From positions 1-24,552 of the IMG/VR virus record IMGVR_UViG_3300020020_000153: 24,552 nt of DNA; one strand, 5' to 3'. The notes beneath the pieces were generated by a model. The model was given only the letters and a program-made list of their open reading frames with translations. It had not been told where the DNA came from and did not search any database. Shown piece after piece: positions 1 through 24,552 of the stretch (positions within the stretch are counted from its first letter, which is position 1; each line of letters opens with the position of its first letter). The translations under genes and the position numbers were made by a program. The stretch is from a virus.

Positions 1-183
1 GGCAATAGCAACGAACGTTGCACATGCAACAACGTAGGCAGCATATTCTTTATCGGCATCGATACCTTCCTGATTCAACGCACCCAATAACTCTAGGCAA
101 TCGGTCAAGTCTGACAGGCAATCGCCTAGCTCATAAATAGCAGCTTGAATAGGCTCGGGTTCAACGTCACTAGGCCAAGCCAT
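1..183 (-). CDS. Hypothetical acidic protein, 3' end outside the window
   Basis: An open frame reads from an ATG at 183-181 to the window edge without a stop, so 61 residues are visible and the C-terminus is missing. It begins MAWPSDVEPEPIQAAIYELG and is acidic and helical-looking (Asp, Glu, Leu and Ala rich), with three Cys and no motif I recognise. The start overlaps the end of the upstream zinc-protein gene by 14 bases, which fits the tight packing of this operon and argues that the frame is real. It is the last visible gene of the leftward operon. No function can be assigned. Confidence 0.6.
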   Translation of the reverse strand, partial: MAWPSDVEPEPIQAAIYELGDCLSDLTDCLELLGALNQEGIDADKEYAAYVVACATFVAIA

Positions 184-487
184 TAGGCGGCACCAAACGT
201 AGGCTCTGACCAGGGACGATGCGGTCTAGGTCTAGATCGATATTGAATAGTGACCCCTGGTCGGGGCTTATGCCGTGCCTCAAACGGTCGATACATTCAT
301 GGCATGCAAACCGTGGATGCCGGATAGGCAAGGCAATAGCGTTGGAACCGCCACGCTTCCGAACCTCGCACCAACCCGTCGATAATACGAATACTCCGTT
401 AGCGTTGGTGTCTATAAACGTTCCGCAGTAAACACATGTCGCACGCCGACTGACTGGAATACCCGTTCCATCATTCGGGCTTGTCAT
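170..487 (-). CDS. Small zinc-binding protein (two CxxC knuckles)
   Basis: A 105-aa protein with Cys pairs CVYC near residues 18-21 and CHEC near residues 63-66, the pattern of a treble-clef or zinc-ribbon fold. A further Cys near residue 40 is unpaired. The region between the knuckles is basic (EVRKRGG). The ATG is preceded by a GAGAGG ribosome site at good spacing. It overlaps the upstream 52-aa membrane peptide gene by 17 bases and the next gene by 14. Zinc proteins of this size are common and uncharacterised in actinophages; nucleic-acid binding is only an inference. Two copies of a GACCAGGG-type motif lie inside this gene (208-220 exact, 250-262 degenerate). Confidence 0.75.
   Translation of the reverse strand: MTSPNDGTGIPVSRRATCVYCGTFIDTNANGVFVLSTGWCEVRKRGGSNAIALPIRHPRFACHECIDRLRHGISPDQGSLFNIDLDLDRIVPGQSLRLVPPNGLA
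208..220 (+). promoter_or_regulatory. 13-bp motif GACCAGGGACGAT, exact copy
   Basis: Exact copy of the asymmetric 13-mer that also occurs at 5782-5794 (minus) and 7673-7685 (plus), with a 12/13 copy at 9518-9530. This one lies inside the zinc-protein gene, where it encodes the residues IVPG, and 30 bases from a weaker inverted copy at 250-262. A role as an operator or stoperator is inferred from recurrence only. Confidence 0.4.
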
Positions 488-629
488 TATGCCTCTCCAT
501 TTCTCGCCGTAGGCGGGCCAATTCGGATCTCTGCTCTATAATGGTTCGTCGTTGACCATCGCGGTAGGTCGATCGAACGGCAATCGCAATGACTGTTATC
601 GAAACCATTATGGCTATTGCTATTTCCAC
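471..629 (-). CDS. 52-aa single-pass membrane peptide
   Basis: A GTG start at 629-627 with a GGAG ribosome site 7 bases upstream opens a 52-codon frame ending at 471. Translation begins MEIAIAIMVSITVIAIAVRS: a hydrophobic segment over about residues 1-17, followed by a charged helix rich in Arg and Glu (RRTIIEQRSELARLRREMER) that looks coiled-coil-like. It overlaps the following zinc-protein gene by 17 bases. The predicted topology is an N-terminal anchor with a cytoplasmic or periplasmic charged tail. It could be a small holin-like or accessory protein. It is too short to assign, but the start signal and gene packing support it. Confidence 0.6.
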   Translation of the reverse strand: MEIAIAIMVSITVIAIAVRSTYRDGQRRTIIEQRSELARLRREMERHNDKPE

Positions 630-663
630 TTTATGCTCCAAAGGTAGCTTCGGGTCGGAGGTA

Positions 664-700
664 GGGGGCGGGGGGATCTAAAGATCCTCCCCCCGCCCCC
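664..700 (-). terminator. G/C-tract hairpin, probable terminator or attenuator
   Basis: The left arm 664-679 (five G, C, six G, ATCT) pairs with 682-700 (AGATC, then C-rich tract with one G), leaving a short bulge at 687-689 and a two-base loop. There is no T-tract after it in the leftward direction, as is common for actinobacterial terminators. The G runs (652-654, 664-668, 670-675) could alternatively form a G-quadruplex on the plus strand. It lies downstream of the ATPase gene. Confidence 0.5.
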
Positions 701-713
701 CTTTACCTAGCTC

Positions 714-806
714 TTACGATTCCTTTCGATACTCGGGACCATTCCCCCTGGTCAGACAGGGTTTATCGATTTCGACTCCCGAGACCGACTCCCCGTTTAA
801 GAACAC
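714..806 (-). CDS. Possible 30-aa ORF in the operon gap
   Basis: A GTG at 806-804 opens a frame ending in TAA at 714, beginning VFLNGESVSGVEIDKPCLTR. The same frame stays open upstream to about 902 and reads like plausible protein, but has no ATG, GTG or TTG there. The ribosome site is weak. The frame is -1 relative to the end of the ATPase gene, but no slippery heptamer is visible at the junction. It may be a small peptide, a decayed gene end, or chance. Confidence 0.18.
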   Translation of the reverse strand: MFLNGESVSGVEIDKPCLTRGNGPEYRKES

Positions 807-892
807 TTGTACGATTCTCGGCTCGGGATTTGGCCCGCGACCAGGGGCTATATTGCCTTTCGGTTGCCTTACCGTTAAACCGCTGATACCCC

Positions 893-1882
893 CTAAATTC
901 TGTTATCACGTTCCAATCTCATCTTGATGGCCTCCATAAGATAGGTGATCTTGCCGGGACCGTATTCACTATCCTTTAGGAGCTTGATAGCGTCCCTCTG
1001 GCTAATCGTGCTAGGTGCCCCCAATTCGTCAAGCTGCTTTGCCTTAGTGATTGCTTGCAACGTATAGGTACGCATTTCGCTTGACCGAATAGCGATAGGG
1101 TCATCGCCTAATTCGAGCTCAACTATGCCATTCGCGAATCCAACCCGTGAATGAGTACGGGTTAAGCGGAATCCTGGTTTGCCTCTATCGTCGGTTCGCT
1201 TCTCTAGCGAATAGACCAAATCAACGTCATCGGCTTTCGCACTTGCTCCACGGGATTTCGCTTTATCGTGGCCCGCATGATCCAACCTTGCAATACTCAC
1301 GCCATTAGCCTTAAGCAATCGACCAGTGAAATTATGGAAATTGCGATAGGTGTCGTTTGAATTCTCCTCACCAACAACCACCCTAGAAAGGGTGTCGATA
1401 ATCAGCACACTTGATTCATCGTATTGCATCAATTGCAAGGTATCGATGCCGCCCATTTCGGTATCCATGGGCCGCATGATCGGATAGGAGTGATACTTCA
1501 ACCACCCTTCCAATTGCTCGAAATCCCATCCCATATCGTAGATTCGATCCCGCAAATCCTTTAACGTCATTTCGTTGTCGATATACGAGACTCTTTGCCG
1601 TGGCATGTCATTGCCGGTAAACGGATCTTTGCCCATTGAAATGGCGCACGCTATCCAAAGCATCAACATACTCTTACCAGTCTTAGGTGATGCGAATATG
1701 TGGATATGGGCTCCCATAGGCCAGAATCCTTCAACCAACCAATCGTAATTGAATGTCATGTCACGTAGTGCGACTAGATCAACGGCAGGATTCGGATACT
1801 CATAATGCCCGTTTGATTCGGCCCTACTTTCTAGTTCCTTTACAAACCCTTTGAAAGCCTTTACGGCATCTTGTTTATCCAT
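893..1882 (-). CDS. RecA/DnaB-fold ATPase, RepA-like replicative helicase or loader
   Basis: A 329-aa P-loop protein. Walker A is ASPKTGKS at residues 64-71 and Walker B is VLIIDT at about 159-164. A later LDHAGHDK segment (about 205) fits the RecA/DnaB-like motif region of AAA_25 (RepA-type) ATPases. The C-terminal 60 residues look helical, possibly a winged helix. Family members unwind DNA or load the replication fork; here it probably drives phage replication together with the SSB-like and nuclease genes of the same operon. It overlaps the upstream zinc-ribbon gene by 22 bases and is followed by the 640-892 gap. A recombination ATPase is the main alternative. No polymerase or primase is seen in the window. 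Confidence 0.8.
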   Translation of the reverse strand: MDKQDAVKAFKGFVKELESRAESNGHYEYPNPAVDLVALRDMTFNYDWLVEGFWPMGAHIHIFASPKTGKSMLMLWIACAISMGKDPFTGNDMPRQRVSYIDNEMTLKDLRDRIYDMGWDFEQLEGWLKYHSYPIMRPMDTEMGGIDTLQLMQYDESSVLIIDTLSRVVVGEENSNDTYRNFHNFTGRLLKANGVSIARLDHAGHDKAKSRGASAKADDVDLVYSLEKRTDDRGKPGFRLTRTHSRVGFANGIVELELGDDPIAIRSSEMRTYTLQAITKAKQLDELGAPSTISQRDAIKLLKDSEYGPGKITYLMEAIKMRLERDNRI

Positions 1883-2271
1883 TGCTCACATCGTTTACCG
1901 GCAGCAACGAATTCGGATTCTGTGATTTCGCCATTGGCATACGCCTTGTCGATTCTGGCTAGCCACGGGCTTATGAAATTGCCCGAATAGCCCCTAGTAT
2001 TGGCCCATACTTCCCGACTCACTTTCCCCAATTGGTAATATTGTTCGCCCCATTCGATCCACTCGGGAAAGAGTAGATTTCGCTTCCTATCTACTTGTTT
2101 GATTTGCCATCGTTTGTGGCACCAATAGCAATGGTCACCATTGGGGCCGACCCAACTAGCTAGACAACGTAGGCATTGGTATTCGTAATCACCATCACCA
2201 TTCGCACCTAGGTTGTTGGGTCGGCCCCATTTGACGTATAGCGGATCGTCAATCGCTAGAAAGCGGTTCAC
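1861..2271 (-). CDS. Zinc-ribbon protein next to the replication ATPase
   Basis: Contains CLRC and, after a WVGPNGDH linker, CYWC, a four-cysteine zinc ribbon in the N-terminal third. It is followed by a basic stretch (KRWQIKQVDRKR) and an aromatic-rich helical C-terminus (FPEWIEWGEQYYQLGK). The start is uncertain: there is no ATG. I chose GTG at 2271 (136 aa), which gives a 23-base overlap with the upstream gene; a TTG at 2316 would add 15 residues but overlap by 68 bases. Its 3' end overlaps the ATPase gene, suggesting translational coupling. DNA binding or a primase-like accessory role is inferred from position and zinc motif only. Confidence 0.65.
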   Translation of the reverse strand: MNRFLAIDDPLYVKWGRPNNLGANGDGDYEYQCLRCLASWVGPNGDHCYWCHKRWQIKQVDRKRNLLFPEWIEWGEQYYQLGKVSREVWANTRGYSGNFISPWLARIDKAYANGEITESEFVAAGKRCEQWINKMP

Positions 2272-2455
2272 GCAATTCAAAGTAGATATCGCCGTCGACA
2301 AATCGGCAACTAACAATGTCGAATGGCGTAAGCCCCCGATTTGACATTTGGTTGACGATGAGATTTACCGTGAAATCGTCTAGCGAATGGTCGAGGAACA
2401 ATGGGCCAATATGCGTATCGTGTCGATAACCGCCAGGGTTGATTACTCTACTCAT
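2249..2455 (-). CDS. Small hypothetical protein, 68 aa
   Basis: A short acidic protein starting MSRVINPGGYRHDTHIGPLF, with no recognised domain. The ATG at 2455 forms a TGATG stop-start overlap with the SSB-like gene; a GTG three bases upstream is also possible. The C-terminal half (FDIVSCRFVDGDIYFELREP) looks beta-rich. Its conserved position inside the replication operon is the only functional hint. Confidence 0.6.
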   Translation of the reverse strand: MSRVINPGGYRHDTHIGPLFLDHSLDDFTVNLIVNQMSNRGLTPFDIVSCRFVDGDIYFELREPLSSD

Positions 2456-2931
2456 CACGCTAGATCGTCCATATCAATCGTTGCCAATGGCGCACGGTAT
2501 GAAGCGGTATAAAGCTTCGGGGGCGTAAACCCCTTATTTGCCGCTTGCCCCATACCGGTATATTCCATCGTGAGGATTCCCCCGATTTGGATTCCTTCGG
2601 TACTACCGGAACGCCTAACGGCATCTTTCACTGCCAATAGGGAACTAGTACCGGAACCCTTAACGGCAGTGAAATTACCGCCACGGAGATAGACGCTACG
2701 CAAACCCTCATCTTCCTCGCTTTCTTGCAAGTCGGTTTGAAGGGTAATACGAAGCATCATCTTCGGATCACCATTAGCCCAGTGCGACGGTTCCCCCGTT
2801 TGCATATCGGTTTGTTGTTGCTTCTTCATTTCCTTAATTTCGCCCGATACCTTGTTGCCGATTTCCTCAAATGGGAACGCCTTAGCGCCACCACTAAACA
2901 GGAAGTCGTTACCCTCATTATCGTCTGGCAT
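2455..2931 (-). CDS. Putative single-stranded DNA-binding protein (OB-fold-like)
   Basis: A 158-aa protein starting MPDDNEGNDFLFSGGAKAFP. The body has the look of an OB-fold: a beta strand VSGEIKEMKKQQQT, a MMLRITLQTDL strand, then charged residues and a VYLRGGNFTAVKG strand, ending in the acidic tail MDDLA. An acidic C-terminus is typical of SSB-type proteins. Actinophage replication modules often carry such proteins beside a RecB/Cas4-like nuclease, exactly as here: it begins at the TAATG overlap with the upstream nuclease gene. The assignment rests on fold impression and context, not a clear signature. It may protect ssDNA for the ATPase downstream. Confidence 0.6.
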   Translation of the reverse strand: MPDDNEGNDFLFSGGAKAFPFEEIGNKVSGEIKEMKKQQQTDMQTGEPSHWANGDPKMMLRITLQTDLQESEEDEGLRSVYLRGGNFTAVKGSGTSSLLAVKDAVRRSGSTEGIQIGGILTMEYTGMGQAANKGFTPPKLYTASYRAPLATIDMDDLA

Positions 2932-4439
2932 TACTGGCCCCTTTCGGTTGGAATCCGTACAATCGGATTATCTTGCTCATCAAACAACAACATTGCATTA
3001 CCGGCAGCTATGGCGAATGCGGCCGACAGTAGAAGCGGCCCATGATCTACGCTTAATGCCGCTAGTGAATCAATCCCTAATGCCCGAAGCGAACCAATCA
3101 ACATTAGGTCGATATCTTGCGTTGACCATTCGGGTTCGGGAAGGCTTGCGAAATGAACGAGCACGTTAATTATTTCGTCTAGTTCGGCGGGATCATCAAT
3201 AGTCAATTGATTGACCCAAGCCATCATTAGCGTCTTAGCCCGTGAAATAGGCTTACCATTACTCGGGTGATTTCGCATCGATTCCGCTACCGGATCAATC
3301 CACGTTTCTCCGAACGGGATTGAGTAGTCGGTTTCGATTTGCTCAATCGCTAGTGCGATAGCTTCCAAATCGTCTGCCGAATGCCCCGATTGCTTTAGGC
3401 CCGGAACGCCTTTAGGCCAAACCCTTGTCAATGCCTTTGCGGCAATCTCCGAATGATCGATGATGGCCCGCACCCTTGTCCGCAGATGGTCGGCACGGGC
3501 CTCCGTAGAGGCCTCTGGTTGCCGCTCTACGGGCCTCACGGGCTCGGGGGCCATGGTTGCGGCCGAAGGTGCTTCGGGCTCCGTAGACGGCAAACGTGCG
3601 GCAGATAGCAAGTCGTCACGCCTACGCCAATCCTTCACTTCACTTGCCAACGTCAAGCCTTTCCTACCGGATTCGATATCGACCCAATAGGCATCGATAC
3701 GAGTACCGGCAGAATCGGCATGAATGATTAACGCCCAATCTGCCACGCTAGGCGGATCGAATACATAGCGTTCATCGGTCACAACGTCATAACGCAACGA
3801 ATCAACGTATGCCGCTAATTGTGTGCAATAGCTACCGGCGGCATATTCCAATTCCTTGCCTGTCTTAAGGTCGGCAACAAGTACCGAACCAATCGGGATG
3901 ATTGTTCCGTCGGGAGCAAGCAAAGCCTTAGTAGTGCGGAATCGTCTATCTAACGTGCCTGCCAATCGAAATCGATCATTGATGCAATGGATTTCGATAT
4001 CTTCGACTTCTAGGCCCCAATTCGCCTTAAACTCTATGTAGTTCATGCAAAGTTCAATGTAGTTGGGTGGTGCCAACCATTCGTCTTGCCTGTCGATATG
4101 GTCAAACATGGCATGAACGGCGGTACCGATAACCGACCTACGTTCGCCTTTACCGGCAACCAAACATTTCTCTGCAATATCCCGAAGTTGCTTCTTATTC
4201 AAATCGGGATCAAGTACCGAAGCGGCCGCCATCAATTCTGGTCGTTGTGCGGCACCACTCACTACGGTACGCAATTTCCAATCGGTTAAGTTGGATTCGT
4301 CGTCAAGTATCTTCCCCCCATTACTTGATCGTGAATAGCGAACCCGTTTGCCGTTCGGGTCAAGCACATAAGGAATACCCTTTCCAATCCTTCGGAAATC
4401 GGGCCTATCTGGTGGATCGTATTCGTCTAAATCAACCAT
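2931..4439 (-). CDS. PD-(D/E)XK nuclease, RecB/Cas4-like exonuclease
   Basis: A 502-aa protein from ATG 4439, which gives an 8-base overlap with the gene before it; a GTG at 4451 would add 4 residues. The RecB-type nuclease motifs appear in order: GTAVHAMFDH (H109), GTLDRR (D164), VLVADLKTGK (D190, K192) and QLAAY (Q207-Y211). This family degrades or trims DNA ends in recombination and replication. A low-complexity linker of Pro, Glu and Ala follows at about residues 280-316, encoded by a GC-rich repeat of the dispersed family. The remaining C-terminal 185 residues form a separate helical domain I do not recognise. It sits next to the SSB-like protein, suggesting a recombination or replication pair. 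Confidence 0.85.
   Translation of the reverse strand: MVDLDEYDPPDRPDFRRIGKGIPYVLDPNGKRVRYSRSSNGGKILDDESNLTDWKLRTVVSGAAQRPELMAAASVLDPDLNKKQLRDIAEKCLVAGKGERRSVIGTAVHAMFDHIDRQDEWLAPPNYIELCMNYIEFKANWGLEVEDIEIHCINDRFRLAGTLDRRFRTTKALLAPDGTIIPIGSVLVADLKTGKELEYAAGSYCTQLAAYVDSLRYDVVTDERYVFDPPSVADWALIIHADSAGTRIDAYWVDIESGRKGLTLASEVKDWRRRDDLLSAARLPSTEPEAPSAATMAPEPVRPVERQPEASTEARADHLRTRVRAIIDHSEIAAKALTRVWPKGVPGLKQSGHSADDLEAIALAIEQIETDYSIPFGETWIDPVAESMRNHPSNGKPISRAKTLMMAWVNQLTIDDPAELDEIINVLVHFASLPEPEWSTQDIDLMLIGSLRALGIDSLAALSVDHGPLLLSAAFAIAAGNAMLLFDEQDNPIVRIPTERGQ
3496..3595. repeat. GC-rich dispersed repeat, in frame inside the nuclease gene
   Basis: Shares CCGTAGAGGCCTCT (3503-3516) with 19064-19077. 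Positions 3527-3548 match 23871-23891 except for one extra base. ATGGTTGCGGCC (3553-3564) recurs at 9284-9295. The host gene reads through it as a disordered Pro/Glu/Ala linker (about residues 280-316) between its nuclease and C-terminal domains. Confidence 0.7.
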
Positions 4440-4635
4440 AGAATCCAGCACTTTCCAATTCGACGTTTATTTGATTGATAAGCCCGATCATTCCCGCCAC
4501 GAATCCTCTATGGAATTCGCACGGTTTCCAATTGTCGCCCGGCGACCCATTCGATTCGCAATCTTTGCACTTAGCAATGTGACGACTCAATACGTTGTCG
4601 GCAATCACCACCAATGGCCCCCTAGTTGTCTCCAT
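4432..4635 (-). CDS. Small Cys/His-rich protein, 67 aa
   Basis: Starts METTRGPLVVIADNVLSRHI. It contains CKDCES and, 12-15 residues on, CEFHRG, giving a possible C2-CH zinc site at about residues 23-42. The C-terminal part (GFVAGMIGLINQINVELESA) is a hydrophobic or amphipathic helix. It starts one base after the stop of the Thr-rich protein gene and overlaps the nuclease gene by 8 bases. Function unknown; it may be a small nucleic-acid-binding accessory. Confidence 0.65.
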   Translation of the reverse strand: METTRGPLVVIADNVLSRHIAKCKDCESNGSPGDNWKPCEFHRGFVAGMIGLINQINVELESAGFYG

Positions 4636-4636
4636 A

Positions 4637-5020
4637 TCATTCCGTTACTGGCAACCCGAATACCGGAACGCTTACCTTTGTCGGCACGGGCTTTACCGTT
4701 GTGCTAGTTGCGTTTACCGTTGTGCTAGTTGCGTTTACCGTTGTTGACGTTCCGTCAATTGTGGTTGTAGGCGCAATGGTGGTTGTGCTATTGGGCACGT
4801 CATCATTCGGCGGATTCGTTGTAGTGGTTGTGCTATTCACCGGAAAGCTAAATTGAGATCCCTCAATTGTCGTTGTCGTTGTTGCTTCGGTTGTTGTGGT
4901 TGTTGGGCACGGGCCACCACAACCCGAAATGATTTCGTCGTCGGCATTAGCCCTAATTGCCAGACCACCTATCGCCAACGTCAATCCGCCCACGATTACG
5001 CTTAATCGAATTCGGTTCAT
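4637..5020 (-). CDS. Secreted or anchored Thr-rich low-complexity protein
   Basis: A 127-aa protein with an N-terminal signal-like segment: MNRIRLS, a hydrophobic core VIVGGLTLAIGGLAI, then a possible cleavage at RANADD. The mature part begins with CGGPC and is dominated by runs of Thr (five in a row), Asn, Pro and Val, with a heptad-length repeat STTVNAT encoded by a 21-bp tandem DNA repeat. Such Thr-rich stretches are typical of extended cell-surface stalks in actinobacteria. It lies between RusA and a small zinc protein in the early operon, an odd place for an exported protein. It may modify the infected cell surface, for example superinfection exclusion; that is inference. TGATG overlaps the RusA stop. 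Confidence 0.75.
   Translation of the reverse strand: MNRIRLSVIVGGLTLAIGGLAIRANADDEIISGCGGPCPTTTTTEATTTTTIEGSQFSFPVNSTTTTTNPPNDDVPNSTTTIAPTTTIDGTSTTVNATSTTVNATSTTVKPVPTKVSVPVFGLPVTE
4692..4745 (-). repeat. 21-bp tandem repeat, 2.5 copies
   Basis: The unit starting tttaccgttgtgctagttgc recurs at 4692-4712 and 4713-4733, with a partial third copy from 4734. It encodes the heptapeptide repeat STTVNAT of the Thr-rich protein. Copy number may vary by slippage without breaking the frame, because the unit is seven codons. Confidence 0.9.
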
Positions 5021-5520
5021 CATTCGATCCCATGCTTTGCCATAACGCCCAATAGGATATTTCGACTTTCTCCGAAACGCTTTAGGGTTTCATCTTCTAG
5101 AAAGTCGATAGTTACCCTTGCCCCCGGATTACCGGTCCACGCATAAACCTTTGTAACGGTTACAAAGATTACTTGCGAATCATCCCGCCAAACCACCTTT
5201 GTCATTGGGTCCATAAGGCCCCTAAGTAGTTTGTCGATATCGGGTTTCTTTACGCATGGCAACCAACCCATTTGGTACTTGCGTACCGAACTAGTCGGAT
5301 AGGGCAAGGCGAATTCAACGTATAGGCGAATAGCCTTATCTGACGGATTACGTTCCCCCATAATGGCTATTGCCGCATTCTTTACGTCGGTTCGCCATTC
5401 TCCGAAACGTCGTCGGCTATTTGCCGAACCACTAGGGAGCATTGCCCCATTTGGCATACGGGTTAGCGAACCCTTCGATACGGGATTACCGATAATCGTG
5501 AATGAGATGGAATCCTCCAT
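5020..5520 (-). CDS. rusA: RusA-family Holliday junction resolvase
   Basis: A 166-aa protein from ATG 5520, which lies one base after the stop of the HTH gene. An earlier in-frame start would overlap that gene by about 48 bases. RusA features are clear: N-terminal strand SFTIIGNPVSKGS, a Gly/Arg segment RRRFGEWR, then KPDIDKLLRGLMD with the metal-binding D94 and D96, and VVWRDDSQV with D113. RusA dimers cut Holliday junctions symmetrically, resolving recombination or replication intermediates before packaging. Length is slightly longer than E. coli RusA. It is the second gene of the leftward early operon. Confidence 0.92.
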   Translation of the reverse strand: MEDSISFTIIGNPVSKGSLTRMPNGAMLPSGSANSRRRFGEWRTDVKNAAIAIMGERNPSDKAIRLYVEFALPYPTSSVRKYQMGWLPCVKKPDIDKLLRGLMDPMTKVVWRDDSQVIFVTVTKVYAWTGNPGARVTIDFLEDETLKRFGESRNILLGVMAKHGIE

Positions 5521-5521
5521 A

Positions 5522-5743
5522 TCATGCGACTCTCTTCGGCTTTGATTTGGCCCTAACGAGTCGTTCAATGTCCCGCTTATGCACTAGGCGACGCTTTCCA
5601 ATTCGGTAGTAATCCAATTTCCCTTCGGAGAACATTTGATGGATTCTCTGTCGGCTAACTCCCAATCTGTCGGCAGCTATCATGATTGTCTCTAATTCGC
5701 TCGCCTTTATGACTGCGCCATTACGTTCCATAGGGCCGATCAC
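5522..5743 (-). CDS. HTH excisionase-like DNA-binding protein
   Basis: A 73-aa protein with an excisionase/MerR-type helix-turn-helix: TIMIAADRLGVSRQRIHQMF (helices), then a wing YYRIGKRRLVHKRDIERLV and a basic tail RAKSKPKRVA. GTG 5743 has AGAGGA just upstream; an ATG at 5731 (69 aa) is the alternative. It is the first gene of the leftward early operon and faces the divergent control region 5744-5895. Candidate roles are transcriptional regulator of that region, or recombination directionality factor for the serine integrase. Context favours a regulator; neither is proven. It is also a candidate reader of the 13-bp motif found 39 bases upstream of its start. Confidence 0.8.
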   Translation of the reverse strand: MIGPMERNGAVIKASELETIMIAADRLGVSRQRIHQMFSEGKLDYYRIGKRRLVHKRDIERLVRAKSKPKRVA

Positions 5744-5781
5744 ACTTCCTCTATGTCAAGCGATATGCAAGGAGTTTCTTT

Positions 5782-5794
5782 ATCGTCCCTGGTC
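5782..5794 (-). promoter_or_regulatory. 13-bp motif GACCAGGGACGAT, exact copy
   Basis: The minus strand reads the full motif, pointing toward the HTH gene whose start lies 39 bases downstream. Operator function is inferred from its position in the divergent control region. Confidence 0.5.
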
Positions 5795-5814
5795 GCGCCA
5801 CACATTGTGGGTAC

Positions 5815-5843
5815 TTGACTACTTGACATACGTAAAGTAGGTT
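5815..5843 (+). promoter_or_regulatory. Rightward sigma70-like promoter
   Basis: TTGACT (5815-5820), a 17-base spacer and TAGGTT (5838-5843). A second -35-like TTGACA begins 8 bases later (5823-5828) but lacks a matching -10. Transcription would begin near 5850, giving a leader of about 45 bases before the ATG at 5896. Confidence 0.5.
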
Positions 5844-5845
5844 GC

Positions 5846-5858
5846 TTGCCCTAGGCAA
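5846..5858. promoter_or_regulatory. Palindrome TTGCC-CTA-GGCAA at the promoter start site
   Basis: A 5-bp inverted repeat around CTA lies where transcription should begin, so a bound repressor would block the rightward promoter. Its right half CTAGGCAA is repeated 15 bases on at 5866-5873. Confidence 0.45.
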
Positions 5859-5895
5859 CATTCCACTAGGCAATCCATCAAGTGAACGGGGGAGA

Positions 5896-6207
5896 ATGAA
5901 TCAAATCGAAAGAGCGTATGCCGAATGTCGTTCATTGGGCCATGAATGGCGCAAGGGTAAACCAATGGCAACCGATGAGCTTTCATGGGGGACAATCGGC
6001 ATACCTTCAACGTGCCCGAATTGCGGTACAAGCAAGGTGCGAACAATCACAAGGTCGGGAGAGAGCAAGACTCGGTATGACTATCCCGACGGTTATTCAC
6101 GCCATGGTGACGATGTTCTATCGGTAAAGGAATGGCGGCACGCCTACATCGAAACCATATTCGAGTCATTCGAGAGAGCTACCAAACGTCAGAGGAAAGT
6201 ATCATGA
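5896..6207 (+). CDS. Actinophage-type zinc-ribbon protein, 103 aa
   Basis: Starts MNQIERAYAECRSLGHEWRK. The pattern C..LGHEW, later CPNCGTSKVRTITRSGE and TRYDYPDGY is one I know from many actinophage proteins of unknown function; CPNC with the first C-x5-H could bind zinc. I chose ATG 5896, directly behind GGGGGAGA. The spacing is unusually short, but upstream in-frame starts (TTG 5842) would lie inside the promoter. First gene of the rightward operon; its stop overlaps the next ATG (ATGA). Regulatory or nucleic-acid binding is plausible but not shown. Confidence 0.75.
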   Translation: MNQIERAYAECRSLGHEWRKGKPMATDELSWGTIGIPSTCPNCGTSKVRTITRSGESKTRYDYPDGYSRHGDDVLSVKEWRHAYIETIFESFERATKRQRKVS

Positions 6208-6527
6208 GAACCGAACAAGTATTCATCACATGTGATGAATGCAACGCCATTGACGCAACCGAACTACGGTTTGCCGTCAACAACCGGCCCTATGCAATTG
6301 ACCTATGCCAGACCCACCGAGCCATCTTTGATACGTTGATTCAAACGTATATCACAAATGGTCACGCCGTTCGCTTCAATAACCACACTATTAGAAAGGA
6401 TGCCCCTAAGCCGATTGTCGATACGGCAAATCCAAAGAAGGTCCGAAAGAGTAGGGCGAAAGTAGAAGTACCGGCAATGGCGGTAGATGCCCCAACGATT
6501 GAAACGGAGGAAATCGCTAGTGCCTGA
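6204..6527 (+). CDS. Lsr2-like zinc protein, candidate nucleoid-binding silencer
   Basis: A 107-aa protein. VFITCDECNAIDATELRFAV, then YAIDLCQTHRAIFDTLIQTY, then GHAVRF follows the layout of the Lsr2 N-terminal dimerisation domain (acidic turn, strand, YEIDLS helix, G-R-V), with an added CDEC...CQTH zinc site. The C-terminal 45 residues are basic and Pro/Ala-rich (PKKVRKSRAK), where Lsr2 carries its AT-rich-DNA-binding domain, but I do not see a clear RGR hook. Lsr2 is an actinobacterial xenogeneic silencer, and phage copies can modulate it. ATG overlaps the previous stop; an AGAGGAAAG ribosome site precedes it. Confidence 0.6.
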   Translation: MRTEQVFITCDECNAIDATELRFAVNNRPYAIDLCQTHRAIFDTLIQTYITNGHAVRFNNHTIRKDAPKPIVDTANPKKVRKSRAKVEVPAMAVDAPTIETEEIASA

Positions 6528-6672
6528 ATACGTACTCGTTATTTATGAAGGTTCGATCGATCTAATTTGCGATGAATGCGGATCGGTCAATCACTGGGGA
6601 CCGCCAATTGAACTAGATGAAATCATCGCGAATGCCGACGACCATACGAGCGAGGCACATTCAAATGGCTAA
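6520..6672 (+). CDS. Small Cys-pair protein, 50 aa
   Basis: GTG 6520 lies 9 bases behind a GGAGG site and overlaps the stop of the Lsr2-like gene. The product, MPEYVLVIYEGSIDLICDEC and 30 more residues, has one CDEC pair like its neighbour and an acidic C-terminus with several His. Half of a zinc site is visible, so it may dimerise around metal. Function unknown. Its stop overlaps the next ATG (ATGGCTAA). Confidence 0.6.
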   Translation: MPEYVLVIYEGSIDLICDECGSVNHWGPPIELDEIIANADDHTSEAHSNG

Positions 6673-7132
6673 ATTGGTTGCAACGTATGCCGAAGGATTC
6701 TTTGCCGTATTCACCGAAAGCCGTTCGGGAATGCAACAACGAGCGTTGATCGACATAGGCGACAAAGTTCCTACCCCTAAGGAAATGGCGGAATTAGCGG
6801 GAGTCCTATCCGATCAATGGGGATGGGGCAACGTCATTGAACGTTCGCCATCGTCAAAGGCAAAGGAATTGCCGTCAGAGAATAAGCGGGCCTATGCAAA
6901 GCCACGATCTACCGGCGAACCTGTAGGGGCAATTCGTGAGCAAATGATTCTTGATTACGTGGCAAATCACCCGAAAGCTACCGGTAGGGAAATTCTTGAG
7001 GGTTTAGGGTGGGAATTCACGAAAGCTAGAATCTCACGATGGCAGCATGCGTTCACGGCATTGATTCGGGCGAATCAATTGGTGGCCGAAACGGTTGCCG
7101 CTAGTCGCATTAAGCTCTATTCGTTGCCATGA
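6665..7132 (+). CDS. Winged-helix-like protein, candidate phage regulator
   Basis: A 155-aa protein starting MAKLVATYAEGFFAVFTESR. The N-terminal half is unrecognised. After a Ser/Lys/Pro linker (about 70-90), the C-terminal 60 residues (REQMILDYVANHPKATGREI through LVAETVAASRIKLYSLP) have the helix order of a winged-helix DNA-binding domain. It is the last gene of the rightward operon and is followed by a strong terminator. By position, this operon is where an immunity repressor or lysogeny functions could lie; this protein is the best candidate in it, but that is inference. Confidence 0.6.
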   Translation: MAKLVATYAEGFFAVFTESRSGMQQRALIDIGDKVPTPKEMAELAGVLSDQWGWGNVIERSPSSKAKELPSENKRAYAKPRSTGEPVGAIREQMILDYVANHPKATGREILEGLGWEFTKARISRWQHAFTALIRANQLVAETVAASRIKLYSLP

Positions 7133-7144
7133 ATAGAAACGAAA

Positions 7145-7177
7145 AGGCCCCCGAATCTCCCATGGATTCGGGGGCCT
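7145..7177. terminator. Strong bidirectional hairpin terminator
   Basis: A 13-bp perfect stem, AGGCCCCCGAATC against its complement at 7165-7177, with a 7-base loop. A-rich sequence precedes it and TATCTT follows it. It lies between convergent genes ending at 7132 and 7193, so it probably serves both. Confidence 0.85.
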
Positions 7178-7192
7178 ATCTTGCTTCGGGGA

Positions 7193-7537
7193 TTACGAGA
7201 GGGTAACGAATACCCGATATCGCTTACCGGATTCGATGGGGGAGGTTTCCACCTTAAAGGCCTCTCCCGCAGCCTTTCGGATTTGGGCAATCCGATTGAC
7301 CGGGTGGCCTCCGTCCTCATCGGGGGAACGCATTTCATACGTTCCGGGTGCCTCAATTGAAGCGAGGAAAGCCTCAATTGCGGGCACGTTGCTCGCCCTA
7401 CCGCCACGCTTACCGGGTGCGGGCTTATCTTCGGGCTTGATTGCTACTGCGGTAAAGGCCAACTTGGCACCTTCCTTTGTTTCGGGTGAATTGACCTTAT
7501 CACCGCCGTCGGGATTGTCTAGCTTCTTTGTTGCCAT
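7193..7537 (-). CDS. Small basic hypothetical protein beside attP
   Basis: A 114-aa protein starting MATKKLDNPDGGDKVNSPET. The N-terminal 50 residues are Lys/Pro/Gly-rich and probably disordered (KPEDKPAPGKRGGRASN). The C-terminal 60 are compact, with VNRIAQIRKAAGEAF then a KVETSPIESGKRYRVFVTLS beta hairpin, which could be a small winged helix. It stands alone, convergent with the rightward operon and divergent from attP/integrase. Candidate roles include a recombination directionality factor or DNA-binding regulator; neither has sequence proof. AAGG lies 9 bases before the ATG. Confidence 0.6.
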   Translation of the reverse strand: MATKKLDNPDGGDKVNSPETKEGAKLAFTAVAIKPEDKPAPGKRGGRASNVPAIEAFLASIEAPGTYEMRSPDEDGGHPVNRIAQIRKAAGEAFKVETSPIESGKRYRVFVTLS

Positions 7538-7627
7538 GGGCCGACCTTAACGCTTGACATTGGTTAAGTGCAAGGTGGGCCGATGGGCGAATCTCCCCCG
7601 TTGTAGCTCCCGTTGCTTGCGCCGTTC

Positions 7628-7670
7628 TAGGCCCCCGTACGAGGCCTCCCGAGCTTGCCTCGCATGGCCC
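7628..7670. repeat. GC-rich dispersed repeat island
   Basis: Contains AGGCCCCCGTACGAGGCCTC and CATGGCCCG elements of the same family seen at 9284-9540, 19047-19110 and 23850-23957. It is shorter and more degenerate than the other copies. Confidence 0.5.
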
Positions 7671-7672
7671 GT

Positions 7673-7685
7673 GACCAGGGACGAT
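7673..7685 (+). promoter_or_regulatory. 13-bp motif GACCAGGGACGAT, exact copy beside attP
   Basis: Ends one base before the left arm of the attP palindrome and reads toward the integrase. A bound protein here could control integrase expression, or access of the integrase to attP. Function is inferred. Confidence 0.5.
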
Positions 7686-7686
7686 G

Positions 7687-7738
7687 CCAGTTGCACCTAG
7701 TGCCCGATTCCAAGCAATCGGGGAGTGACTGCAACTGG
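7687..7738. other. Candidate attP of the serine integrase (52-bp imperfect palindrome)
   Basis: Outer arms CCAGTTGCA (7687-7695) and TGCAACTGG (7730-7738) and inner arms CCCGATT (7703-7709) and AATCGGG (7716-7722) are perfect inverted repeats. They are symmetric about 7712/7713, with unpaired 7-base segments between them. Large serine integrases use attP sites of about 50 bp with this two-tier symmetry, one tier each for the recombinase and zinc-ribbon domains, and usually encode attP right next to the integrase, as here. The central dinucleotide would be AA, which is non-palindromic as directionality requires. An RNA hairpin in the integrase leader is the alternative reading. Confidence 0.7.
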
Positions 7739-7791
7739 TGGTACCCTAGGGTTTCGGTAGTTTGACCTTTGTAAAGGAGAAAGTTTCAACC

Positions 7792-9210
7792 ATGGCTAGC
7801 AAGCGTAAATCTCAACAAACGATTGACTCGGAAATTAAGCGAGTCGCTATTTACGTTCGGTATTCCAACCTAGGTGGGCGCAATAAGGAAACGCTAACGA
7901 CATTAGATACGCAAGAATCGGGATGCCGTGCCCATTGTGCTTATAAGGGTTGGGAAGTTGTAAAGGTGCTGGCCGATCCTGGTCGTTCGGCATTCAAGAA
8001 GAATACACCTAGGCCCGAATATGATGAGGCTTTGCGAATGATCCAAACGGGCCAAATTGACGCCATCGTTGTTTGGAAAGTCGATCGGTTTACCCGTTCG
8101 TTGCATCAATTCACAAAGGATTGGCACGATATCGAATCTGCGGGAGGCCATTTCGTTTCCGTTATGGAGCAATTCGATACGTCAATTCCAATGGGCCGAC
8201 TTATGTTGACGCTAGTGGTCGGATTTGCCGAACTAGAATCGGAAATGAAATCGGAACGGGCTATTCCTATGCACGCATTCCTAAAGGAGAATGGAAAGGT
8301 GGGACCGGGCCCACGCCCATACGGTTATGACCGAACCAATAGCAAGAATGGCGAGGGTGCTTGCCTTACCGTTAATCGCAAAGAAGCGGATTTGCTCCAA
8401 ACGGCGGCTAAGTGGGTATTGGATGGCAAATCCCTTTCATCGTTTATCCACACCTATCAACCGAACTCGTCGGTTGCCAATAAGAAGATGACCTATCACG
8501 GGTTGCGTTCATCGCTCATCAATCCAACAACGGCGGGCCTCCGTACTTGGGATGAATCACCCGACGGATATAAAGAAGGGAATTGGACGCCCATTATTGA
8601 GCGGGAAATGTGGAACAAGGTCGTTGCACTTATTACCGATCCCGCTAGGCGTGCCCATTTGAATTCGACTTCAAAGTCGCATTTGCTTTCGGGATTGATG
8701 GTCTGCCCGGAATGCAATAAGAACGTTCATGCTCGGGGATGGGTAAGCAATACCACCAAACAACGTACAAAGCGTTATGCGTGCCCAACCTGTTACCGTT
8801 CGGTTGATATGGCGGCAGCCGATCCCGTGGCAGTAGAAATGCTATTTGATGCCGTGCCCGAATCGAAATGGCAAGCGTGGCAATCTGCCGGTACGGGTTG
8901 GGATATCGACGTAATCAAAGGGTACGAAGCGAAACTTGCTTTGATCGATAAGCAGTATTCCGACGACATTATCGGGGATGATCGATGGATGACAATGACG
9001 GCGGATATCCAAGCAAAGATTGATTCGGCCAACAATTCCGAACCGCTTGATATCCCCATGATTCCTCATCTTCGGAATGGTTGGGATGAATTGTCGCTAC
9101 ACGATAAGCAAAGGGTATTTCGTCAAGCCTTTGCGTCGATTCACATTCTTCCGGCTAAAGGTGCGGAACGTTTCAACGTGCGAACCCGTATCGCAATGAA
9201 CGAGAGGTAA
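7792..9210 (+). CDS. int: Large serine recombinase, phage integrase
   Basis: A 472-aa protein from ATG 7792, behind AAAGGAG (spacing about 12, slightly long). The catalytic domain starts VAIYVRYSN with nucleophile Ser25. VWKVDRFTRS carries the conserved Arg residues, and GRLMLTLVVGFAELESE is the long E-helix segment. The recombinase domain includes GPRPYGYD; a zinc ribbon follows with CPEC and CPTC (around residues 305-335), and then a coiled-coil-like C-terminus. It catalyses attP x attB integration without host factors; excision needs a phage directionality factor. The gene stands alone with its own terminator, and attP lies 54 bases upstream. The length is typical for the family. Confidence 0.95.
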   Translation: MASKRKSQQTIDSEIKRVAIYVRYSNLGGRNKETLTTLDTQESGCRAHCAYKGWEVVKVLADPGRSAFKKNTPRPEYDEALRMIQTGQIDAIVVWKVDRFTRSLHQFTKDWHDIESAGGHFVSVMEQFDTSIPMGRLMLTLVVGFAELESEMKSERAIPMHAFLKENGKVGPGPRPYGYDRTNSKNGEGACLTVNRKEADLLQTAAKWVLDGKSLSSFIHTYQPNSSVANKKMTYHGLRSSLINPTTAGLRTWDESPDGYKEGNWTPIIEREMWNKVVALITDPARRAHLNSTSKSHLLSGLMVCPECNKNVHARGWVSNTTKQRTKRYACPTCYRSVDMAAADPVAVEMLFDAVPESKWQAWQSAGTGWDIDVIKGYEAKLALIDKQYSDDIIGDDRWMTMTADIQAKIDSANNSEPLDIPMIPHLRNGWDELSLHDKQRVFRQAFASIHILPAKGAERFNVRTRIAMNER

Positions 9211-9238
9211 CCCAACCCAACAAGGCAAGTTCAAACGA

Positions 9239-9268
9239 GAGGCCCGCACGTTTCGACGTGCGGGCCTC
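9239..9268 (+). terminator. Integrase terminator hairpin
   Basis: Perfect 12-bp stem GAGGCCCGCACG / CGTGCGGGCCTC with a 6-base TTTCGA loop, followed by the T-rich GTTTCGTTTCT. It starts 28 bases after the integrase stop. Confidence 0.85.
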
Positions 9269-9270
9269 GT

Positions 9271-9542
9271 TTCGTTTCTAGGCATGGTTGCGGCCCCCGA
9301 GCCCGTAGAGGCCCGTAGAGAGGCTTACGAGGCCTCGTAACGGGCCATCCCAACGAGGCAAGCAAACGGCACGGTTCTACGGAGCATCCCAACGGCGGGA
9401 GGCCTCGCTAGCTCCGTTCACGTTGCCGCCTACGGGCCTCCACGGGCCTAGGTGGTATGCACATGGCCCGGAGGCCCCCGAGCCCGTTAGAACGGCACCT
9501 AGGGGCCTCTCGTGCCATCGTCCCTGGTGGCGGCCTAGATCG
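9271..9542. repeat. GC-rich repeat region at a convergent junction
   Basis: No gene is supported in this 272-bp stretch. It is built of AGGCCC/GGGCCT palindromic elements: two abutting CCCGTAGAGG units (9298-9320), an ACGAGGCCTCGT palindrome near 9330, and a 22-bp segment (9419-9440) whose exact inverted copy is at 23920-23941. CATCCCAACG occurs twice (about 9347 and 9386). A 12/13 copy of the 13-bp motif sits at 9518-9530 on the minus strand. It may terminate leftward virion transcription. Confidence 0.7.
9518..9530 (-). promoter_or_regulatory. 13-bp motif, 12/13 copy
   Basis: The minus strand reads CACCAGGGACGAT, one mismatch from the exact motif. It lies at the very end of the virion operon within the GC-rich repeat region. 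A stoperator-like role at a transcript end is possible but unproven. Confidence 0.4.
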
Positions 9543-9800
9543 TTACGGGATTCGGAGGGATTGAACGGCGGCAAGAATGTCGTTATCCGAAATAACCGAT
9601 TGATCGTTACCGGGCCTCGCAATACCGTTAAGGATTGCAGATGCGTATTTGTCGCCAAACCCAGGCATTCCCGCCATGGGCCAAATGTGATTGTTTGTCC
9701 ATTCAATCGGGTCGGGTTCACCTTCACTAGATACGCAAGCTCGAATACGATAGATGAAATCGTTATCGCTAGTGAGTAGTGCAACATCGGAATAGGCCAT
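9543..9800 (-). CDS. Small conserved phage protein of the tail-end region, 85 aa
   Basis: Starts MAYSDVALLTSDNDFIYRIR and continues with a Trp-rich middle and PGFGDKYASAILNGIARPG. I recognise this pattern (AYTD..., one to two Trp, PGF.D.YASA, GNDQSVISDNDILAAVQ) from small proteins in tail regions of actinophages, function unknown. A good AAGGGG ribosome site precedes the ATG. It is the last gene of the virion operon. It could be a tail-tip accessory or chaperone. Confidence 0.7.
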   Translation of the reverse strand: MAYSDVALLTSDNDFIYRIRACVSSEGEPDPIEWTNNHIWPMAGMPGFGDKYASAILNGIARPGNDQSVISDNDILAAVQSLRIP

Positions 9801-9815
9801 GATTTCCCCTTGCGA

Positions 9816-10244
9816 TTAAAGTGTAATGCTCCACGATTGGTTATTAAATGCAAGCTCTGTTAATCCACTCGGGCTAAACGGAACGAAATCACCATTTGAT
9901 CTAAAGTCAATGTGCCCGAATGCCCAAGCGGTATTCACCATACCGGCAACTGCCATAAGGTTAGCGGCACGGGCGGGACGGAAACCAGCGGGAATATTCC
10001 AAGCCGATGTGAAATTAAGAACGCCAACAATGCGCCCACGAATGTAAACAATATCACCGACTTTGCGGTATTGCAAACCACCATCGGCATGATTAGACCA
10101 ACCATTAAGTAGGGTTGCATTCGTCCATGCCGACGGAACATTAGAACCCGTGAGAGTTGTTAGGCGGTTTACCTCATCGGTAATCGGGACTCCCCAATTC
10201 GGGACGCTAATGAGAGTCTTAGTGACTGGTCGAACGATAGCCAT
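9816..10244 (-). CDS. Tail-tip or receptor-binding protein, paralog 1
   Basis: A 142-aa beta-rich protein starting MAIVRPVTKTLISVPNWGVP, with AAGGA 7 bases before the ATG at 10244. It is a clear paralog of the next gene upstream. WTNATLLNGWSNHADGGLQY, then GDIVYIRGRIVG and IPAGFRPA, align with WITATMLNSWVASSGRTIQY, NNVVYVHGVMTG and LPVGYRPS. This motif set is found in distal tail and fibre-head domains that trimerise at the virion tip. Duplicated binders may broaden or switch host recognition. Host-receptor binding is inferred from position and fold. Confidence 0.65.
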   Translation of the reverse strand: MAIVRPVTKTLISVPNWGVPITDEVNRLTTLTGSNVPSAWTNATLLNGWSNHADGGLQYRKVGDIVYIRGRIVGVLNFTSAWNIPAGFRPARAANLMAVAGMVNTAWAFGHIDFRSNGDFVPFSPSGLTELAFNNQSWSITL

Positions 10245-18999: not shown

Positions 19000-19211
19000 T
19001 AGAGAACAAGCAAGCCGATAGCTACGGCGGCACTAGCGAACCATGGCAGGGAGGCCCGGAGGCCCGTAGAGGCCTCTACGTGGCCCGTAGACGGCCGATC
19101 GGAGGCCCGGAGCACTGCCAGCACACCCAACGCCAGAAACGCAACGGCGGCCCCTAGGAAGAACCAATCGGAAAGCAAAGTGTGACTATCAAAGATTCCG
19201 TTAGCGAACAT
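18999..19211 (-). CDS. Two-helix membrane protein with repeat-encoded loop, candidate holin or antiholin
   Basis: A 70-aa protein (71 aa if started at the ATG of 19214, three bases upstream). The first segment WFFLGAAVAFLALGVLAVL and a last segment LPWFASAAVAIGLLVL flank a short hydrophilic loop (RASDRPSTGHVEASTGLRAS). The loop is encoded exactly by a GC-rich dispersed repeat (19047-19110), while the helices are in ordinary sequence. Its start overlaps the amidase stop (TGATG). A holin/antiholin pair with the neighbouring gene is the natural guess. Confidence 0.65.
   Translation of the reverse strand: MFANGIFDSHTLLSDWFFLGAAVAFLALGVLAVLRASDRPSTGHVEASTGLRASLPWFASAAVAIGLLVL
19047..19110. repeat. 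GC-rich dispersed repeat inside a membrane protein gene
   Basis: Built of GAGGCCCGGAGGCCCGTAG and TGGCCCGTAGACGG elements. It shares the 14-mer CCGTAGAGGCCTCT (19064-19077) with 3503-3516. It encodes the inter-helix loop of the holin-like protein without disturbing the frame. Confidence 0.75.
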
Positions 19212-23840: not shown

Positions 23841-23959
23841 GCAATCGGTCACGAGGCCTCACGTTGCGTTCTACGGGCCTACGGGCTCGGGATGGCGCAA
23901 CCGTCGCCCGGAGGCCCTAGAGGCCCGTAGGCGGCAACGTGGCGGGAGCTAGGCGGCCC
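23841..23959. repeat. GC-rich dispersed repeat at the terminase/lysin convergent junction
   Basis: CTACGGGCCT (23871-23880) and AGGCCCGTAG (23921-23930) form a 10-bp inverted repeat with a 40-base loop. Positions 23871-23891 match 3527-3548 with one indel, and the 22 bases 23920-23941 are an exact inverted copy of 9419-9440. It probably acts as a bidirectional terminator. No gene is seen. Confidence 0.75.
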
Positions 23960-24079: not shown

Positions 24080-24552
24080 GGTCCATATCCATCATATTCA
24101 AATAGGGTGGTTGCGGCACGGATATTGAATTCTGGTAGCTGCAATTTGGCAACCGTGCAACTCTCGCCCAATTGCCTTGCGATATAGCGACAATTACTCG
24201 GCATGATTTGAAGTAGGCCAGTTGCGCCACTCGGGTTTCGCACTAACGGTTTGCATCGTGATTCCCTATACATGATGCGGGACATTCGTTCAATAGACCA
24301 ACCCGGATCATATTCGGCAAGTAAACCTTCGGCCCCAACGCAACGACCATTAGCGCTATCCGACGTAAAGCGAATAGGCTCGGGAGCGGGAGCGGTTATC
24401 GGGGGATTTAGGCGCACGGCAACATCGTAGGCAATAGCCGGTTCGGAGAGTGGCGGCAATTCCACGGGATAATCGGCAGCGTCAACGGTTGACCAATTTA
24501 TGCCCGGTTTATCGGCTCGAGCATAAACGGCAGCGTCAACGGTTGCCCAATT
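24067..24552 (-). CDS. Lytic transglycosylase-like protein, N-terminus outside the window
   Basis: A soluble-lytic-transglycosylase/goose-lysozyme-like domain: MSRIMYRESRCKPLVRNPSG with the catalytic Glu, then ATGLLQIMPSNCRYIA, the typical SLT motif order. The frame stays open upstream to the window edge (162 residues visible), and no ribosome site precedes the internal GTG at 24465, so I treat the gene as continuing outward. The N-terminal part is Pro-rich and contains a duplicated NW(A/S)TVDAA motif. Cysteines at three places could form disulfides, pointing to an exported or virion-associated enzyme. It could be a second endolysin or a tail-associated wall hydrolase. Confidence 0.75.
   Translation of the reverse strand, partial: NWATVDAAVYARADKPGINWSTVDAADYPVELPPLSEPAIAYDVAVRLNPPITAPAPEPIRFTSDSANGRCVGAEGLLAEYDPGWSIERMSRIMYRESRCKPLVRNPSGATGLLQIMPSNCRYIARQLGESCTVAKLQLPEFNIRAATTLFEYDGYGPWKL
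24474..24552 (-). repeat. 54-bp-spaced direct repeat in the transglycosylase N-terminus
   Basis: cggcagcgtcaacggttg is found at 24474-24491 and again at 24528-24545, with the following bases also matching except one. The spacing is 54 bp (18 codons), so the protein carries a duplicated segment NW(A/S)TVDAA. More copies may lie beyond the window. Confidence 0.75.

Follow-up and report, generated by a model that had tools for sequence, protein, structure and literature searches.

What does a short asymmetric sequence that recurs in the control regions of a small soil phage do, and is it, as the original prediction proposed, part of a network resembling the stoperators of Cluster A mycobacteriophages? 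The window analysed here is the whole of IMG/VR record IMGVR_UViG_3300020020_000153 (24,552 bases), a tailed-phage sequence in which ACCAGGG occurs seven times, six of them as GACCAGGG. Analysis of these copies makes it fairly probable that they are operator-like sites of about 12-13 bp, that their core is A-SCWGS-GR-NNAY, and that a single sequence-specific regulator belonging to this phage lineage binds them. The window comprises a leftward early operon (HTH_17 gene, RusA, exonuclease and AAA helicase), a short rightward early operon, a serine integrase gene and a leftward virion operon, with a divergent early control region at 5744-5895.

The three exact 13-mers and the three weaker copies named in the original prediction lie where it placed them (Table 1), and its 12/13 copy is present one base to the left of the 9518-9530 assigned to it. 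The virion genes hold none of the six GACCAGGG; the virion region, described earlier as empty of copies, has none within two mismatches and three at three mismatches (15731, 19210 and 20912). The statement that most copies lie outside genes stands, with five of the seven in the 5.5% of the window that is intergenic by a hand-made gene list (binomial 1e-5); its placement of the copies at 208 and 250 in the divergent control region does not, since both sit in open reading frame (ORF) 170-487. Gene calls were made partly by eye, the automatic caller having missed ORFs 170-487, 5522-5743 and 5896-6207.

Compared with shuffled or simulated sequence, it is the core that is enriched: GACCAGGG is observed six times against 0.20 expected (about 0.001 after Bonferroni correction over 8-mers), and none of 300 Markov simulations reaches seven ACCAGGG, whereas the 13-mer at up to three mismatches is not enriched (nine found against 6.2 expected; 15 of 100 shuffles reach nine). 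The probability of about 0.001 originally attached to three identical 13-mers was overstated, since some tripled 13-mer arises in 17 of 300 order-3 Markov simulations (and in 3 of 300 regional shuffles). The window holds seven tripled 13-mers of several families, including some that stem from a GC-rich repeat. These tripled 13-mers, the simulations and the three-mismatch count are what speaks for a chance origin of the repeats in GC-rich intergenic DNA, with close relatives having them by descent, an explanation that we consider very improbable in view of the places conserved in a distant relative and the in-register core exchanges described below. The case rests on position and conservation; the three identical 13-mers are weaker evidence than was originally held.

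Four relatives were compared: L016 (19.1 kb, mostly 82-89% identical where aligned), G002 (26.3 kb, L018 and L019, mostly 71-79% identical) and G017 (24.3 kb, L062 and L063, with helicase 39% and terminase 53% identical), in all of which the control region is present, and G016 (20.2 kb), which has part of it. Their gene calls are automatic and the resulting intergenic labels are rough; positions 408 and 455 of L016, for example, are labelled intergenic but lie within the homologue of ORF 170-487. Past the helicase stop in the window, L016, G002 and G017, the four sequences that hold this region, there is an antisense copy at 38-50 nt and a sense copy at 121-144 nt, the cores of this divergent pair being spaced 94, 94, 94 and 83 nt apart, respectively, with the sense copy of L016 having a changed core. 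Random placement of the 15 ACCAGGG of G017 gives this geometry in about 1 of 8,000 trials, with a tolerance set post hoc. ACCAGGG is also found upstream of the helix-turn-helix (HTH) gene in both the window and G017, by eye 27 nt before a TTGACA in each, and in G017 GGCCATCTACCAGGGSTTAYGCAGAAACCT, about 30 near-identical bases, is common to this site and the antisense one past the helicase gene. In the window, L016, G002 and G016, all four of the integrase-bearing sequences with the region, an attP-like dyad has a motif copy a few bp away; the dyad sequences differ among lineages, yet a copy adjoins each, that of G016 being a 12/13 match that differs at the centre base and runs the other way. 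Measured against their flanks, the sites give a mixed picture: the G002 counterparts of the 741, 839 and 7673 sites match at 13/13, 12/13 and 12/13, but the 5782 site matches at 7/13 in both L016 and G002. The pattern ASCWGSGRNNAY is absent from L004, L019 and L020, pieces that cover virion genes only. Profile searches with helicase, integrase and RusA added no close relative in which the control region is present, and 14 of the loci recovered were scanned for the motif.

Table 1. Motif copies in the window, followed by candidate binding proteins and neighbouring features.
Feature	Position	Strand	Context	Counterparts and remarks
Exact copy, GACCAGGGACGAT	208..220	+	Within ORF 170-487, antisense to it	Exact in L016 (408)
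8-mer core, GACCAGGGGTCAC	250..262	-	Within ORF 170-487, sense; inverted pair with 208	Core retained in L016 (455)
10/13 copy, GACCAGGGGGAAT	741..753	-	Sense; gap after helicase gene	Identical in G002 (L018 482); ACCAGGG in G017 (L063 11044); AGCTGCGG core in L016 (941)
11/13 copy, GACCAGGGGCTAT	839..851	+	Antisense; 47 nt beyond helicase stop	ACCAGGGG retained in L016, G002 and G017
Exact copy	5782..5794	-	Divergent early control region, upstream of HTH gene	ACCAGGG at like place in G017 (L063 4937); GCTGCGG core in L016 and G002
Exact copy	7673..7685	+	Adjoins putative attP, upstream of integrase	Exact in L016 (7863); 12/13 in G002 (9087); GACCTGGGACGAT, inverted, beside the attP-like dyad of G016
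12/13 copy	9517..9529	-	Between convergent ends of integrase and virion units	11/13 in L016; five ACCAGGG in the same gap of G002
Small HTH_17/Xis-type protein	5522..5743	-	First gene of leftward early operon	Leading candidate binder
114-aa basic protein	7193..7537	-		Retained in five of five lineages; weak R3H-like fold match
155-aa protein, predicted C-terminal winged helix	6665..7132	+		No homologue detected in G017
AAA_25 helicase gene	893..1882	-	Upstream of the 741/839 site pair	
Serine integrase	7792..9210	+		Resolvase and Recombinase domains
Putative attP	7687..7739			53-bp partial dyad CCAGTTGCA...TGCAACTGG; fold z -3.9 against shuffles
Candidate rightward early promoter, TTGACT-N17-TAGGTT	5811..5839	+		By eye, ends approximate; absent from consensus-scan list

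The aligned sites that lack ACCAGGG are those at 741, 5782 and 9517 in L016 and at 5782 in G002, and three of these four read GCTGCGG in register. Because GCTGCGG occurs only six times in the eight sequences scanned, its presence in register is hard to call chance; the change at 5782 in L016 and G002 may be a single inherited event. In L016, the flank ACGGCCCGTG precedes both ACCAGGGGTTAT and AGCTGCGGTAAC, so that flanks stay while the core changes. The exchange of ACCAGGG for GCTGCGG suggests a shared core, A-SCWGS-GR, and since CCAGG and GCTGC differ at the outer two positions and at the centre of the palindromic five-mer SCWGS, it further suggests a core whose recognition would be two-fold symmetric within a site that as a whole is asymmetric. 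An in-register core swap would offer a natural system for site-by-site change of phage operator specificity. A bolder proposal, which we regard as doubtful, is that these phages possess an independently evolved second dispersed-operator system of actinophages, in which the cores ACCAGGG and AGCTGCGG are interchangeable at fixed addresses and give a single phage sites of two specificities, which competing regulators may read or which may record past exchanges of immunity type.

Several copies form inverted pairs (741/839 and 208/250 in the window, 11111/11166 in G002), which might pair in the transcript as a cis-acting structure or processing site. The 741/839-type pair closes a long stem in the window (z -3.8) and G002 (z -3.0) and 7 bp in G017 (z -0.8), the convergent pair of G002 has a z of -3.2, and L016, which lacks CCCTGGT/ACCAGGG pairing there, yet has an adjoining 10-bp stem (z -1.4). 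Pairing is, however, inherent to every inverted repeat; the copies at 5782, 7673 and 9517 have no nearby partner and are still exact or 12/13; the new stem of L016 is accounted for by the flank GGCCCGTGA, which is common to both sites and also stands before the unpaired 7673 copy; and scans for tRNA, tmRNA and Rfam families give no match. Because unpaired copies share the sequence and shared flanks account for the L016 stem, recognition as DNA is favoured, and a role of the motif as an RNA element is improbable.

We infer that a phage-encoded protein binds the sites as DNA and thereby affects transcription, the most likely binder being the HTH protein. This protein matches PF12728 (E 2e-9), phrog_66 (E 1.5e-5) and 4j2n (E 1.4e-4), its closest solved relative being Gp37 (4j2n), which is named Pukovnik Xis in the RdfS paper. 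Three readers had been proposed originally. One of them, the winged-helix protein, is weakened, as is the integrase, because G017 keeps the motif sites without detectable homologues (no integrase by tblastn, and no homologue of 5896-6207 or 6665-7132 detected). A fold search with the winged-helix protein gave a generic winged helix with no E below 0.001. The other two, the HTH and basic proteins, stay as candidates, and G017 retains both genes together with the sites; annotated phages that were searched gave no match for either protein. The R3H-like fold match of the basic protein is tentative at most, its Z of 7.0 being within the range of unrelated models. The sites might also be read by a host regulator or nucleoid protein, since the core is more constant than every candidate phage binder; we judge this unlikely, as the virion operons are without sites.

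The predicted pairing of a small HTH_17 protein with sites beside attP (7673) and upstream of its own gene (5782) resembles two characterized regulators: RdfS is an HTH_17 protein that binds attP and its own promoter, and Apl of phage 186 binds att and a region between early promoters, cooperatively, at direct repeats and with low specificity. Whereas RdfS and Apl serve tyrosine integrases, the integrase here is a serine integrase, for which phiRv1 offers the precedent of a 73-aa Xis. The Xis-like HTH protein, this precedent and the copy adjoining the dyad in all four integrase-bearing sequences are consistent with accessory sites of integration and excision, with a directionality factor bound next to attP and the remaining copies as by-products; we consider it quite improbable that the motif is confined to this role, given that G017, without an integrase by tblastn, keeps the site near the HTH gene and those that follow the helicase gene.

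A number of observations weigh against regulatory sites of this kind. The 13-mer at 5782 matches only 7/13 in L016 and G002, like its surroundings, unless the GCTGCGG form is accepted, and the 741 site matches 8/13 in L016. The L016 counterparts of 7673 (13/13) and 9517 (12/13 against the window copy but two mismatches from the consensus, the window copy itself being one off) are no better than much of the surrounding sequence. Conservation of the 208 and 250 copies may reflect coding, ORF 170-487 being kept at the protein level in L016, L018 and L063. Lone matches in G017 carry little weight because that genome is CCAGGG-rich, few genomes are available for comparison, and the motif was widened to SCWGS post hoc, from the same sites. 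The HTH proteins of the window and G017 are 28% identical, with the recognition region diverged too, and ACCAGGG is unchanged between them. Unlike the targets of Apl, finally, the copies at 5782 and 7673 are single specific sites rather than direct repeats one helix turn apart.

If the copies are nonetheless operators, the regulator would have four points of action: the divergent early promoters together with the region upstream of its own gene (5782), the stretch that follows the replication operon (the inverted pair 741/839), the interval that adjoins attP ahead of the integrase gene (7673), and the gap in which the integrase and virion units converge (9517). The HTH protein would then be autoregulatory and would act at attP in the manner of RdfS and Apl. 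Such sites would point to the location of a lysogeny switch whose repressor is not recognisable by homology. Two other roles were considered for the motif and rejected: that of a promoter, as a sigma-70 scan gave one promoter-like site in 1-10000, at no copy, and no -10 or -35 element was seen at a fixed offset; and that of a restriction or methylation site, as CCWGG is not depleted.

A second short sequence is confined to control gaps. TGTCAAG (CTTGACA), which is the 3' half of known stoperators, occurs three times in the window, at 5754 (+), 5822 (-) and 7553 (-), all in two control gaps; L016 retains all three, G002, G017 and G016 have partial counterparts, and the occurrence at 7553 lies within a near-palindrome, CTTGACATTGGTTAAG, that is perfect in G002. 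It contains TTGACA and may represent only -35 boxes, but as a candidate for a lysis-lysogeny operator it is as good as the motif studied here. The protein encoded at 6204-6527 weakly matches Lsr2-like proteins (Pfam E 2.7e-4, PHROG E 2.2e-5) and is possibly a nucleoid-type phage silencer.

The remaining features of the window concern repeats, hairpins and affiliation. The GC-rich repeat around CTACGGGCCTC / GGCCCCCGAGCCCG is found at 3504-3561, 9290-9482, 19054-19107 and 23856-23952, and also in L004; a 38-nt inverted pair, 87% identical (9408-9445 and 23915-23952), flanks the virion module, one copy of the repeat lies in the exonuclease ORF, and the whole looks like a small mobile or REP-like element. 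There are 21-nt tandem repeats in a Thr-rich ORF (4692-4754) and, at the right end (24469-24552), a 30-nt repeat, 93% identical, 54 nt apart. A strong GC-rich hairpin without a T run follows site 741 (661-701) and has the same shape, in other sequence, at the corresponding position in L016, G002 and G017. Strong terminator-like hairpins also lie at 7145-7177, where the hairpin is bidirectional between 6665-7132 and 7193-7537, and at 9239-9268, after the integrase. G017 lacks an integrase block between its 9543-like gene and its HTH gene (L063 3320-4280), an interval with several long terminator-like hairpins, an arrangement that looks like a deletion of the integration module. The terminase shares 28-30% identity with those of the best-listed annotated actinophages, and among annotated phages searched with the helicase only Streptomyces phage mu1/6 matched. 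A search for the host through prophages, with terminase and RusA profiles against genome contigs, gave no close relative and one distant Nocardia RusA.

How, then, do these sites compare with known dispersed repeats? The 13-bp asymmetric start-associated sequences of Cluster K lie directly upstream of gene starts and have a proposed role in translation initiation; the copies described here, unlike them, lie at least about 38 nt from the nearest downstream annotated start, and several are at gene ends. The published stoperators of Cluster A and CA phages number 20-30 sites of 13-14 bp genome-wide, mostly in one orientation and mostly off promoters, with a consensus that ends in TCAAG and is bound by monomeric Rep, a repressor that has HTH and stoperator domains. 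True stoperators, evolved independently of Cluster A, at which an immunity repressor on prophage sites stops passing RNA polymerase, would account for asymmetric sites of about 13 bp that are mostly intergenic and stand where operons begin or finish; of the six outside the convergent gap, four are oriented along transcription (250, 741, 5782 and 7673). We nevertheless think this unlikely as well. There are seven sites in 24.5 kb, in a record that may be incomplete, and none in the roughly 15 kb of virion genes; orientation is mixed, with 208 antisense and the 839-type copy antisense in four of four genomes; the motif ends in ACGAT or NNAY, not TCAAG; and the 5782 copy is upstream of the candidate rightward promoter, not inside it. 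Family and structure searches gave no match to a Rep-like or Cluster A repressor (ten proteins against Pfam, ten against PHROGs, three by sequence against the PDB and two by fold), although a divergent Rep could escape them. The resemblance originally drawn therefore stands in part: like the stoperators of L5, Bxb1, TipsytheTRex, Gordonia A15 and Rhodococcus CA phages, the sites are asymmetric, about 13 bp long, intergenic, dispersed and near an early control region and a regulator gene, and their positions are conserved even in the relative whose helicase is 39% identical; it does not extend to number, orientation or the TCAAG end, and no Rep-like protein was recognised. The name stoperator is not earned, and the copies are real, conserved and probably the binding sites of a regulator. 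If that regulator is encoded by the phage, they would constitute a dispersed control network that belongs to neither Cluster A nor CA and is found in a lineage known here from metagenomes only.

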